The notes beneath the pieces are model-generated. The model saw only the letters and a program-made list of their open reading frames with translations. It was not told where the DNA came from and ran no database searches. A program made the position numbers and the translations under genes. From Flavobacteriaceae bacterium (GTDB lineage: Bacteria; Bacteroidota; Bacteroidia; Flavobacteriales; Flavobacteriaceae), in NCBI GenBank assembly GCA_947463515.1, contig CANHRI010000001.1, forward strand, positions 58,470 through 122,469: DNA of 64,000 nucleotides, in the 5' to 3' direction. Each line of letters begins with the position of its first letter. The first letter of the stretch is position 1. Below, piece after piece: positions 57,558 through 64,000 of the stretch.

Positions 57558-58514
57558 TTAAAATACCTCTTGAGCAATCGCCTTAATGTTGTCGGCTTTC
57601 CCCATGGAATAGTAATGCAACACGGGAACGCCCGCCGCCAAAAGTTCTTTACTTTGTTGAATGCACCATTCAATGCCAATTTGCTTCACCGCATCGTTGT
57701 CTTTGGCACGTACCACCTCCATAATCAAACTGTCGGGCAATTCCAGACTAAAGCGGTGCGGAATCAAGTTCAACTGCTTCTTTGTCGCGATTGGTTTGAG
57801 TCCGGGAATAATCGGCACCTCAATACCTGCTTTCCGACATTTATCGACAAAATCAAAAAACTTTTGGTTGTCAAAAAACATTTGCGTGATGATATAATCG
57901 GCGCCATTCTTAATTTTTTGCTTCAAAAAATGAATGTCCGAATCCAAACTGGGTGCTTCCATATGTTTTTCAGGATAGCCCGCCACACCGATACAGAAAT
58001 TGGTTTTGGCGGTATTTTTCAAGTCTTCGTCCAAATAAATTCCGCGGTTCAAATTACTAATTTGCTCCACCAAATCCGAGGCATAATGGTTCCCGTCTTT
58101 CTCAGGTTTGAAATAGGTTTCCGTTTTCAACGCATCCCCGCGCAGTGCAACCACATTGTCAATACCGAGGAAATCCAAGTCGATCAACAAGTTCTCGGTA
58201 TCTTCTTTGGTAAAGCCACCACACAATACGTGCGGAATCGCATCCACGTCGTATTTCCCTTGAATCGCGGCACAAATACCAACCGTTCCCGGACGTTTTT
58301 TGACCACTTTCTTTTGCAACAATCCGTTCTCCAACTCCTTAAATTCGTATTCCTCACGGTGATACGTCACGTCAATAAAAGGCGGTTGAAATTCCATCAA
58401 CGGATCAATCCCGTCAAAAATCGACTGGATATTCTGCCCTTTCAACGGCGGTAAAATCTCAAAAGAAAACAACGGCTTTCCTTGAGCATTTTCGATATGT
58501 TGGGTTACCTTCAT
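57558..58514 (-). CDS. metF: Methylenetetrahydrofolate reductase
   Basis: FSFEILPPLKGQNIQSIF; FIDVTYHREEYEF; DNVVALRGDALK; ITQMFFDNQKFFDFV. Confidence 0.95.
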   Translation of the reverse strand: MKVTQHIENAQGKPLFSFEILPPLKGQNIQSIFDGIDPLMEFQPPFIDVTYHREEYEFKELENGLLQKKVVKKRPGTVGICAAIQGKYDVDAIPHVLCGGFTKEDTENLLIDLDFLGIDNVVALRGDALKTETYFKPEKDGNHYASDLVEQISNLNRGIYLDEDLKNTAKTNFCIGVAGYPEKHMEAPSLDSDIHFLKQKIKNGADYIITQMFFDNQKFFDFVDKCRKAGIEVPIIPGLKPIATKKQLNLIPHRFSLELPDSLIMEVVRAKDNDAVKQIGIEWCIQQSKELLAAGVPVLHYYSMGKADNIKAIAQEVF

Positions 58515-58770: not shown

Positions 58771-58795
58771 CTCCCCCTTTGGGGGCTGGGGGGCT
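58771..58795 (-). repeat. 25-bp G/C element, inverted partner of 57410-57434
   Basis: Minus strand AGCCCCCCAGCCCCCAAAGGGGGAG. Confidence 0.9.
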
Positions 58796-61523
58796 AATCC
58801 GCCACATTCGGCGCCAACCACTTATGAGCCACCTCCACCGATACACCACGACGTTGCGCATAATCCTCGACCTGATCGGCTTTGATTTTCCCCAACCCGA
58901 AATACTTGCTTTCGGGATGAGCAAAATAGTAACCCGACACCGAAGCAGCCGGCCACATCGCCATACTTTCGGTCAGGGTTACTCCAATGCGTTCTTCTAC
59001 TTGCAAAAGTTTCCAAATCGTCGGTTTTTCCAAATGGTCGGGACAAGCGGGATAGCCCGGTGCGGGTCGGATGCCCTTATAATCTTCGGCAATCAAGGCT
59101 GGGTTATCCAACTGTTCGTCGCTGGCATAACCCCAAATTTCTTTCCGAACTTTCAAATGCAAATATTCAGCAAAGGCCTCCGCCAATCGGTCGCCCAAGG
59201 CTTTGACCATAATCGCCTGGTAATCGTCCAAATCCTTTTCAAACACGGCTGCTTTTTCATCAACCCCAAAACCCGTCGTCACACAAAAACACCCGATGTA
59301 ATCTTGCACGCCCGTTTCTTTGGGTGCGATAAAGTCGGCCAAGGCGATATTCGGCGCTCCTATATTCTTCTTTGACTGCTGACGCAAGGTGAGGAAAGTT
59401 GTCGGTGGTCGGTTGCTAGTTACTGGTTGTGGGTTGTCGGTGGTTGGCAGCACTTCGATATCATCATCGTTGACGGAATTTGCTGGGAAAATGCCCACTA
59501 AACCTTTGGCGATAAACCAGTTTTCGCTCACAATTTGCGCCAACATTTTTTGAGCATCGTCAAACAGCTGTTGCGCTTGTTCGCCTACGACATCATCCTT
59601 CAATATCGCGGGGTATTTCCCAAACAGCTGCCACGAATGGAAAAACGGTGTCCAGTCGATAAACGGCACCAATGCCGCCAAGGTTACCTTCACTTCTTGT
59701 ACCCCAATAAAATTAGGCTGAGCCGGTTGGTATTGGGACCAATCCAAACGCAATTTATTCGCACGGGCTTCAGTTAGACGCAAGAATTCCTTTTCGCGAC
59801 TGCGGTTCAAATACCCTTCGCGCAATTGATCGTATTCCTCCCGAATTTGTTCGGCATAAGTCGCTTTGTTTTCGGGTTGCAACAAATTACTCGCTACCGT
59901 TACGGCACGCGAGGCATCGTTGACATGCACCACACTTCCGGTGTATTCGGGGGCAATCTTCACCGCAGTATGTGCACGCGAAGTCGTTGCGCCTCCAATC
60001 ATAATCGGAATAGAAATATTCAAGCGTTCCATTTCTTTGGCGAGATACACCATTTCGTCTAAAGACGGCGTGATCAAACCACTCAATCCAATGATGTCTA
60101 CATTTTCAGCGACAGCGGTTTGTATAATTTTCTCGGGCGGTACCATCACCCCCAAGTCGATAATTTCAAAGTTATTACAGGCCAACACCACCGATACGAT
60201 GTTTTTTCCAATATCGTGTACGTCGCCTTTTACAGTAGCCATGAGAACCTTTCCAGCCCCCGCCGACTGACCGTCTTTACTGGCTTCAATAAATGGTAAA
60301 AGGTACGCCACTGCCTTTTTCATGACCCGAGCCGATTTCACCACTTGCGGCAAGAACATTTTTCCTGAACCAAACAAATCGCCGACTACATTCATCCCGT
60401 TCATCAAATGTTGTTCGATGACTTGGATGGGTTTATCAACCAATTGACGTGCTTCTTCCACATCTAGTTCGATAAATTCGTCCAAGCCTTTTACTAGGGA
60501 ATGTGTAAGGCGTTCTTGTACCGAACCGTTGCGCCATTCTTGAACAACCTTATCCGTGGTTTTGGTATCCGATTTTAAGTTTTCGGCGTAGTCGAGCAAA
60601 CGTTCTGTCGCATCATCACGACGATCAAGCAAGACATCTTCAACATAGGTGAGTAAATCGGGATCAATTTCGTCATAGATCTCTAACATTTCCGGATTCA
60701 CAATACCCATCGTCATGCCGTGTTGGATAGCATTGTATAGAAAAGCAGAGTGCATGGCTTCACGCACTTTGTCATTCCCACGGAAGGAAAATGACACGTT
60801 ACTCACCCCTCCCGAAACATGGGCATAGGGCAGATTTTCACGAATCCATTTTGTCGCTAAAAAGAAATCCACTGCATTGCGGCGGTGTTCCTCCATACCG
60901 GTAGCGACGGGAAAAATATTGGGGTCAAAAATGATATCGGTAGCCGGAAAACCCACTTGATGCACCAAGATATCGTAACTGCGTTTACAAATTTCGATTC
61001 GGCGTTCGTAGGTATCAGCTTGTCCCACCTCATCAAAAGCCATGACAATCACAGCAGCGCCGTAGCGTTTGATCAATTTGGCATGATGGATAAAAGCGGC
61101 TTCCCCTTCTTTCAAAGAAATCGAGTTCACAACGCCTTTTCCTTGGATGACTTTGAGTCCGGCTTCAATGATTTCCCATTTCGAACTGTCGATCATCACA
61201 GGAACACGAGCAATATCGGGTTCGGCTGCAATCAAATTCAGGAATTTAGTCATCGCTTCTACCCCATCAAGCATTCCTTCGTCCATGTTGACATCGATGA
61301 TTTGCGCACCGCCTTCTACTTGGGCGCGGGCAATATCTACAGCTGCCTCGTAATTCCCCTCTTTAATTAATCGCAAAAACTTACGGGAACCCGTTACATT
61401 GGTCCGTTCCCCTACGTTAACGAAGTTGGTTTCTGGAGTGATGATTAGTGGTTCTAAACCAGATAATCGCAAGTATTGGGTTGTCGGTTGTCGGTTGTCG
61501 GTTGTCGGTATCTCCTTACTCAT
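58794..61523 (-). CDS. metH: Methionine synthase, pterin/B12-binding/activation domains (split MetH C-part)
   Basis: [54 protein letters not shown]. Confidence 0.94.
59398..59446 (-). repeat. Intragenic heptamer array, 7 units, in metH
   Basis: Plus strand GTTGTCG GTGGTCG GTTGCTA GTTACTG GTTGTGG GTTGTCG GTGGTTG. Confidence 0.92.
61480..61507 (-). repeat. Intragenic heptamer array, 4 perfect units, 5' end of metH C-part
   Basis: Plus strand (GTTGTCG)x4; encodes [10 protein letters not shown]. Confidence 0.95.
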
Positions 61524-61530
61524 AATGCAC

Positions 61531-62541
61531 TTATATACGGGCTACTGATGACTGTAAACTGCTCTCGGTTCTCGGCTTAAATTCTGCCGCCACTTGTGCA
61601 ATCGCACGAATATGCTCTGGAGTAGTCCCGCAACAGCCCCCGATGATGTTCACTAAGTTTTCATTCAAATACTCGCGAATTAAGGCTTGCATTTCTTCGG
61701 GCGTTTGATCGTATTGACCGAAGGCATTGGGCAAACCAGCATTGGGATGCGCCGAAATATTGAGTTGGGTATGTTGCCCTAAGCGTTTTAAATACGGTTT
61801 CAACTGATCGGCACCGAGTGCACAATTGAAGCCAACACTTAACAAAGGAATGTGTGCAATCGATATCAAAAAAGCTTCCACCGTTTGCCCGGATAGGGTT
61901 CGCCCAGAGGCATCGGTAATCGTTCCAGAAACCATAACGGGAATATCGGATTGGCGTTCTTCTTTCACTTCTTCGATGGCAAACAAGGCAGCTTTGGCGT
62001 TCAGCGTATCAAAAATCGTTTCGACCAAAAGTAGGTCGGCTCCCCCATCGATAAGCGCTTCCACTTGTTGGCGGTAGGCAATTCGCAAATCGTCAAAAGT
62101 TACGGCGCGATAGCCTGGATCGTTGACATCGGGACTCATGCTGGCGGTACGGTTGGTGGGACCGATTGAACCTGCCACAAAACGGGGTTTGTCGGTAAAT
62201 TCGTCGGCTACTTCACGGGCAATTTTAGCCGATTGGTAGTTGAGTTCGTAGACTAAATCTTCCATATGGTAATCGGCCATCCCAATCGTGGTTCCTGAAA
62301 AGGTATTGGTTTCTACGATATCGGCACCGGCTTCAAAGTACGCACGATGCACGGCTTTTACGGCCTCGGGTTGGGTGATGGAAAGCAAGTCGTTATTCCC
62401 TTTTAGGGGATGAGGAAAATCTTTAAAACGTTCGCCACGGAAGTCAGCTTCTTCAAACTGATTGCGTTGCAACATAGTTCCCATGGCGCCATCGAGAACA
62501 AGGATTCGCTGTTTTAGAATTTCATTAATATTTACACGCAT
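61531..62541 (-). CDS. metH: Methionine synthase homocysteine-binding domain (split MetH N-part)
   Basis: [46 protein letters not shown]-like [14 protein letters not shown]. Confidence 0.94.
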
Positions 62542-62544
62542 AAT

Positions 62545-62698
62545 GATAACTAATCTTGTATTGCGTTATCAGGAAAGAGAGGATTCTCCTAAGTTATCTT
62601 TTTCTGAAAAAATCAGAATAGAATGTAGCACCTTCCTCGAGGTTGAGGGGTTGCTAAGCGTTCGTAGGGTCTATTCCCTCCCGCTTTCGTGATAACGC
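62545..62698 (-). ncRNA. SAM-I (S-box)-like riboswitch with expression platform upstream of metH
   Basis: Minus strand GUUAUCacgaaagcGGGAGGGAAUAGACCCUACGAacgcuuaGCAACCccuc...GGAAGGUGCUACAUUCU...GAUAAC. Confidence 0.88.
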
Positions 62699-62718
62699 CA
62701 TTATTTTTAAGAACAATG

Positions 62719-62750
62719 CAAAGGTAAGACAAGAAAATCCTCATTTCAAA
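62719..62750 (-). promoter_or_regulatory. Promoter of the metH riboswitch transcript
   Basis: Minus strand TTTG-N20-TACCTTTG. Confidence 0.65.
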
Positions 62751-62769: not shown

Positions 62770-62783
62770 CGCAAACGTTTGCG
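62770..62783. promoter_or_regulatory. 14-bp palindrome CGCAAACGTTTGCG (LacI/PurR-operator-like)
   Basis: Perfect palindrome lying between the divergent metH and metK promoters. Confidence 0.6.
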
Positions 62784-62834: not shown

Positions 62835-62849
62835 CAACCGAAAAATAGA

Positions 62850-62921
62850 AGAGGAGAAATTTGTTCTGATTGCAACCTCGTAAAAAAATGCTAAAGCAGT
62901 AATTCTTCTTTAGTTGTTGCA
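62850..62921 (+). ncRNA. Candidate SAM-II-like riboswitch in the metK leader
   Basis: GAGGagaAAUUUGuucugaUUGCAaCCUCgUAAAaaaauGCUAAAg followed by a segment complementary to both core motifs. Confidence 0.5.
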
Positions 62922-62972: not shown

Positions 62973-64000
62973 ATGGCTTATTTATTTACTTCTGAGTCGG
63001 TAAGTGAAGGACACCCAGACAAAGTAGCGGATCAGATTTCTGACGCGTTAATTGACAACTTTTTGGCATTTGATGCTGATTCTAAAGTAGCTTGCGAAAC
63101 GTTGGTCACTACGGGACAAGTTATTTTGGCGGGTGAGGTGAAATCTAACACCTATTTGGATGTGCAGCAAATCGCACGTGATGTCATCAAGAAAATTGGG
63201 TACACCAAAAGCGAGTACATGTTTGAAGCCAATTCATGTGGTGTGCTTTCAGCGATTCACGAACAATCGGCAGACATTAACCAAGGAGTTGACCGTGCCA
63301 CCAAAGAAGAGCAAGGGGCGGGTGACCAAGGAATGATGTTTGGCTATGCCACCAATGAAACCAACAATTACATGCCATTGGCGTTGGATTTGTCGCATGC
63401 CTTATTGATTGAATTGGCAAATTTACGTCGCGAAAACAATGAAATCACCTATTTACGTCCAGATGCCAAGTCGCAAGTAACTTTAGAATATTCTGACGAT
63501 AACAAACCGCAACGTATTGACGCGATTGTGATTTCGACCCAACACGACGACTTCGATCAAGAAGAAGCGATGTTGGCGAAAATCAAGAAAGACATGATCG
63601 AAATCTTGATTCCGCGCGTGAAAGCGAAATACCCACAATACGCCCATTTATTTAACGACGATATCACCTACCACATCAACCCAACAGGTAAATTCGTGAT
63701 CGGTGGTCCACACGGAGATACAGGTTTAACAGGCCGTAAAATCATCGTAGATACCTACGGTGGAAAAGGTGCTCACGGTGGTGGTGCATTCTCTGGTAAG
63801 GATCCGTCCAAAGTAGACCGTTCAGCTGCCTATGCAACACGTCACATAGCGAAAAACTTAGTCGCTGCTGGTTTATGTGACCAAGTATTAGTTCAAGTTT
63901 CTTACGCGATCGGTGTAGCTAAACCATGTGGTTTATTCATTGATACCTACGGAACAGCGAAAGTAGATATGACAGACGGCGAAATCGCACGTAAAGTAGA
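62973..64000 (+). CDS. metK: S-adenosylmethionine synthetase, truncated by window end
   Basis: [34 protein letters not shown]...[16 protein letters not shown]; open to base 64000. Confidence 0.97.

Follow-up and report, generated by a model that had tools for sequence, protein, structure and literature searches.

The window, that is, the whole stretch of 64,000 nucleotides that was analysed, carries on its minus strand a SAM-I riboswitch aptamer which is followed by genes of methionine metabolism, and a second riboswitch of another SAM class lies divergently from it. The features of the locus are as follows.

57558..58514, minus strand: metF, 5,10-methylenetetrahydrofolate reductase (TIGR00676 above cut-off, PF02219)
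58794..61523, minus strand: C-terminal half of metH, 909 aa (NCBIfam TIGR02082 positions 319-1181)
61531..62541, minus strand: N-terminal half of metH, 336 aa, homocysteine S-methyltransferase domain (PF02574; NCBIfam metH profile positions 1-325), first of the genes thought to be regulated
62591..62698, minus strand: SAM-I (S-box) riboswitch aptamer, full length (RF00162, 80 bits)
62719..62726, minus strand: probable promoter -7 element TACCTTTG (sequence; Bacteroidetes consensus TAnnTTTG)
62750-62747, minus strand: possible -33 element TTTG, with a 20 nt spacer to the -7 element
62770-62783, between the divergent metH and metK promoters: perfect palindrome CGCAAACGTTTGCG
62845-62904, plus strand: SAM-II long-loop riboswitch (RF01726, 63.7 bits), upstream of metK at 62973

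The preliminary description of this DNA had named metH as the target gene, and this identification holds, but not for a whole gene, since metH is split here and the open reading frame behind the aptamer encodes its N-terminal half. The pterin-binding, B12-binding and activation domains (PF00809, PF02607, PF02310, PF02965) are found in the C-terminal half, which begins after a gap of 7 nt, and metF lies on the same strand 279 nt beyond it. The closest named relative, judged by MetH, is Flavobacterium stagni, with 99% identity.

The -7 element stands 22 nt 5' of the GUUAUC of P1, and TAnnTTTG is found 22-25 nt 5' of GTTATC in 31 of 70 related leaders. In Bacteroidetes, the consensus TAnnTTTG is separated from the transcription start by 4-5 nt (PMC6847099), so the conserved spacing upstream of GUUAUC suggests that the transcript probably begins near 62714, just 5' of the first strand of the aptamer. 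The palindrome CGCAAACGTTTGCG is present in F. stagni and absent from the other 79 related loci, and it resembles an operator of the LacI/PurR type; a short bidirectional hairpin is the alternative.

The SAM-II element shares its ligand and the intergenic region with the SAM-I element, but it is a separate riboswitch, on the other strand and before metK, so one intergenic region holds both SAM classes. A survey in 2007 reported no species with both SAM-I and SAM-II (PMC2258182). SAM-II was found in 384 of 397 Flavobacterium genomes, and both classes together in most of the 60 Flavobacterium genomes which were searched for both.

The SAM-I aptamer and its repeated strands

The preliminary description had called the element SAM-I-like and had proposed a search with RF00162. 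In cmscan, this model is matched over positions 1-108, the full aptamer, at 62698-62591 on the minus strand with 80 bits (E 3.2e-17) against a gathering score of 44.4 bits, and this is the sole SAM-I aptamer of the genome. In addition, the conserved pocket motifs, GCAACC and GGUGC of P3 and the G of J1/2, match the RF00162 alignment, and the aptamer stands upstream of methionine/SAM genes, the split metH and metF. For J1/2 the Rfam consensus is aAGA, but the window has ACGA, with the variant position at 62689 on the minus strand. The 41 Flavobacterium metH aptamers of the first set all share this ACGA, and most other SAM-I aptamers of Flavobacterium have AAGA or CAGA, so that, as judged from these sequences, ACGA is a largely gene-specific change adjoining a SAM-contacting base. 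SAM-I variants that respond to spermidine are characterized by altered SAM-contacting positions and by polyamine genes downstream (PMC10853860). This identity was considered and rejected for the window aptamer, whose P3 motifs agree with the SAM consensus and whose genes are metH and metF. By its sequence the aptamer is thus an ordinary SAM-I aptamer, and it is filed here as a SAM-I member with a variant platform.

The preliminary description distinguished four segments, A to D, in the minus-strand RNA, and a check of the sequence found all four at the positions it had given. With the extensions made in this analysis they are as follows.

62698-62691, minus strand: segment A, GCGUUAUC, the 5' strand of P1 (sequence, RF00162)
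62684..62698, minus strand: segment A extended, the 5' strand of P1 with J1/2 and the start of P2 (RF00162, fold, recurrence)
62593..62598, minus strand: segment B, GAUAAC, the 3' strand of P1 (Rfam structure line; invariant pairing in the alignment of close leaders)
62570-62563, minus strand: segment C, GAUAACGC (sequence)
62563..62577, minus strand: segment C extended, CUUUCCUGAUAACGC (ligand-free MFE; kept in relatives)
62544..62550, minus strand: segment D, GUUAUC(A), a copy of the core of A at -9 to -3 before the metH start (sequence)

The pairing of A with B as P1 agrees with the Rfam structure line, which assigns GAUAAC to the 3' strand of P1, and the 7-bp C:D pairing UGAUAAC/GUUAUCA is also present, between 62571-62565 and 62550-62544. 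The GUUAUC of D proper occupies 62550-62545, and three bases, AUU, lie between D and the AUG at 62541. The leader carries what amount to two copies of each P1 strand, D repeating the core of A and C repeating B, and the extended C consists of a near copy of B and a CUUUC tract that pairs with J1/2-P2. Segment A is the switching strand, and its partner is predicted to be B when SAM is bound and C when SAM is absent. Each of the two pairs, GCGTTATC...GATAACGC at a spacing of 60-140 nt and TGATAAC...GTTATCA at a spacing of 8-25 nt, occurs at a single site in the 64-kb window; as both patterns are self-complementary, the search lists each of them on either strand.

Predicted exchange of the P1 5' strand

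The preliminary description had given A:C as a helix of 8 bp which forms without SAM. The pairing exists and belongs to the ligand-free MFE, and only its length has to be revised: 9 bp (62698-62690 with 62563-62571) and 5 bp (62688-62684 with 62573-62577) are separated by a 1x1 C-C mismatch. When the growing transcript was folded, P1 had a probability of 0.97 just before C emerges, and once C is transcribed A:C without ligand is the MFE with a probability of 1.00. Shorter transcripts were used for this, since an RNA that extended about 60 nt into the gene formed long-range pairs with its coding part, and these obscured the switch.

The A:C helix occupies all of A and so is mutually exclusive with P1, as is required of an antisequestor. 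Furthermore, its 5-bp part uses J1/2 including G62688, which aligns with the SAM-contacting G of J1/2 known from solved SAM-I structures. Because A:C pairs this G as well as the P1 strand, A:C and SAM binding would be doubly exclusive. The P1 state lies about 5 kcal/mol above the free ensemble in the window; by estimate, a ligand of nanomolar affinity at 0.1-1 mM could pay about 7 kcal/mol, and the cost of P1 would be within the reach of nanomolar SAM binding.

In the window, pairing the A strand with the platform gives a duplex of -19.7 kcal/mol (z = -6.5 against dinucleotide shuffles). The same pairing was surveyed in 109 SAM-I matches from 97 related genomes and in 70 of 80 further metH loci, and it beats shuffles in the metH leaders of Flavobacteriaceae (mean z about -1.6) and of six other families (mean z -2.5 to -4.5); on the sequences compared, A:C recurs in the metH leaders of at least seven families of Flavobacteriales. 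It is not confined to metH: the non-metH leaders of Flavobacterium have a mean z of -3.0, many of them preceding metX (one was checked), and almost all A:C pairs are retained in 27 metX leaders. In a phylum-wide sample, A:C is strong in other genera of Flavobacteriaceae (z to -7.9), is present in some metH and other leaders of other orders (L231, L250, L251, L257) and, in the majority of the remoter groups sampled, is weak or missing. Moreover, the core of A:C shows a compensatory change, GUUAUC/GAUAAC here versus CUUAUC/GAUAAG in other families.

The mirror pairing, between the 3' strand of P1 and sequence further downstream, was scored too; its mean z is close to zero for the majority of groups, with few loci at p <= 0.05. 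The window leader resembles the yitJ SAM-I riboswitch of Bacillus subtilis (RF00162) in the aptamer, in P1 as the SAM-dependent helix, in the methionine genes and in the expected OFF logic. In yitJ, however, it is the 3' strand of P1 that switches, leaving P1 for an antiterminator (PMC3656099), and the output is an intrinsic terminator, so the strand exchanged in the window leader is the opposite one: the 5' strand would be captured, and the output is predicted to be accessibility of the start codon.

Proposed masking of the start codon and rival explanations

The analysis establishes the identity of the aptamer, its segments, their conservation and the predicted energetics; we infer SAM binding, the direction of control and translation as the controlled step. 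It is quite probable, in our judgment, that the SAM-I riboswitch shuts off the translation of the split metH, and possibly of the downstream genes too, at high SAM. With SAM bound, A:B would form P1 and C would be released to pair with the start region, either with D (-9 to -3) or, as an alternative in this species, with the UGCGU over the AUG; the start would then be masked and MetH not made. At low SAM, C would capture A in the 14-bp imperfect helix, in which the J1/2 G required by the SAM pocket is also paired, so that the aptamer would be dismantled and the start freed. The extended C is thus predicted to act as antisequestor with A and as sequestor with D or the AUG region. Since Flavobacterium works without Shine-Dalgarno (SD) pairing, the block would target access to the AUG with the bases immediately 5' of it, and not to an SD. 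F. johnsoniae is without SD sequences, and mRNA structure near the start lowers initiation in it (PMC6847099), which agrees with masking of -9 to +6.

Conservation around the start codon is consistent with this reading. The seven closest leaders retain GUUAUCA beside the start codon (UUAUCA in L155), and the loop between C and D has diverged; D is kept in this position in L111, L112, L113, L123 and L151, and in a weaker form in L155. Over a larger sample of 80 related metH loci, 5 have GTTATC at most 14 nt from the start codon, where the expectation is about 0.003 per locus (binomial P 4e-6, among relatives that are not independent). Covariation in C:D is slight, with one compensatory pair among seven closest leaders that are nearly invariant, and taken alone this count is uninformative. 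The eighth C:D pair changes from C-G to U-A in L123 (F. luminosum) and is broken in the window. Other species have other D sequences, for instance GCCUC, matched by GAGGCAUG, in L049 and AGGUUAUUU, matched by AAAUAACUU, in L021.

The preliminary description had proposed that C:D blocks initiation once P1 forms. When P1 was imposed, C:D was the predicted fold in five of six close relatives (L112, L113, L123, L151 and L155, each with a C:D probability of 1.00), but in the window its probability was only 0.17, and in F. stagni 0.04. C:D is weak in these two because the 3' end of C can pair elsewhere: in their P1 state, ACGCA of C pairs with UGCGU over the AUG instead. The start is predicted to be covered by C in either fold, although which pairing does so in the window is ambiguous. 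It is possible, though doubtful, that in this species ACGCA/UGCGU alone masks the start and D has no part, which would leave the overall logic unchanged. This is the predicted P1-state fold in the window and F. stagni, but the energy gap in its favour, about 1.5 kcal/mol, is within the error of the model, and D still matches C in both species, as it does in relatives without the UGCGU alternative. A pairing of B with D (6 bp) was also considered and rejected, its ensemble energy being about 2.5 kcal/mol weaker than that of the P1 state and the extra matched bases of D tracking C, not B.

Masking was further assessed by the energy of opening positions -15 to +6 in a sample of 50 leaders with C near the start. 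This comparison replaced a per-sequence test of C:start pairing, in which only 3 of 21 metH leaders reached p <= 0.05, AT-rich shuffles being quick to pair. The mean cost of opening is 3.7 kcal/mol higher in the P1 state than in the A:C state, the difference falls to 1.3 kcal/mol when the stretch after C is shuffled, and 46 of the 50 leaders are positive; the species are related, so the Wilcoxon P of 1e-9 overstates the independent support. The difference in the window itself (2.7 kcal/mol) is below that of its shuffles (4.6), and therefore the case for closing of its start is carried by its relatives. In leaders L076, L169, L171 and L173, no start-closing effect was predicted.

Many Flavobacterium metH leaders have 100-300 nt extra between C and the start, so masking of the start by C cannot be the full story in them. 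Rho-dependent termination as the main mechanism, in which the SAM-bound state leaves the pyrimidine-rich C (CUCUCUUUCCUG) single-stranded for Rho loading before or in metH and A:C hides C without SAM, is more attractive for such leaders, and the CUUUC tract of C is conserved even in those that have the long insert and no D near the start. Translational repression would by itself lay the mRNA open to Rho. However, Rho loading needs neither a conserved D at the start codon nor masking above shuffles over 50 leaders, and we regard Rho as an improbable main mechanism. Intrinsic transcription attenuation as in the S-box leaders of Firmicutes, where it is the commonest SAM-I mechanism, is far less probable still: terminator-like hairpins with U runs do occur in a few other SAM-I leaders of the order (L006, L010, L014, L033), but no terminator-like site was found between 62591 and 62541 on the minus strand and no hairpin with a U run precedes the metH start there, nor is there enrichment of the textbook antiterminator pairing, in which the P1 3' strand binds further downstream. 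That the aptamer is real and A:C and C:D arose by chance, making no switch, accords with a start-closing effect in the window not above its shuffles, but it is scarcely credible in view of the A:C score against shuffled platforms (z about -6.5 in the window) and the recurrence of A:C across families.

Relation to known platforms

Translational control by the window leader, if it occurs as proposed, has parallels, translation control being the predicted commonest mode of riboswitches outside Firmicutes (PMC2258182). The SAM-I riboswitch of the Xanthomonas campestris met operon acts mainly on translation, its start codon being masked with SAM bound (PMC7270179), and the output predicted here is the same; the platform of X. 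campestris, however, also masks the SD and binds uncharged initiator tRNA, whereas no SD is expected in the window leader. Translational OFF logic is also shared with SAM-I riboswitches that hold the ribosome-binding site within P1 (direct sequestration, PMC2258182), but in the window the 3' strand of P1 lies about 50 nt 5' of the start and a separate segment, C, would do the masking.

Beyond the single locus, we incline to the view that Flavobacteriales SAM-I riboswitches have a distinct platform, in which a copy of the P1 3' strand with a pyrimidine tract invades the P1 5' strand and J1/2, disrupting the SAM pocket, and, when released, masks an SD-independent start; it would serve metH and metX, D having been reinvented in differing sequences. 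Such a translational platform would be lineage-wide and is apparently undescribed: no description of a SAM-I platform in Flavobacteria or of P1 5'-strand exchange in SAM-I was found in the open-access literature, which is weak evidence as subscription papers were outside its scope. In the textbook SAM-I riboswitch the 3' strand of P1 is swapped and the ending is a terminator, whereas here a whole order, of bacteria that initiate without SD pairing, appears to swap the 5' strand instead, with start codons as the site of action. It would offer a compact natural system, with variants in many species, for riboswitch control of initiation without an SD, and the many variants allow the evolution of platforms under a fixed aptamer to be studied.

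Two further kinds of leader were observed among the relatives. The terminator-like hairpins of L006, L010, L014 and L033 (e.g. AATCTCTTCTGACTTATCGGGAGAGATTTTTTT) carry in the loop CUUAUC, a copy of the P1 5' strand, and on this sequence evidence these four leaders are a different platform type within the same order. In addition, the inserts of 100-300 nt in metH leaders (L016, L052, L064, L068 and others) share the motif GAGCGAAT..TTTGC...TTCCCGCT...GCTATATC...GGATACCGCT...CGGGGCTAA, which looks like a dispersed structured element, perhaps a candidate Flavo-1 (RF01705).
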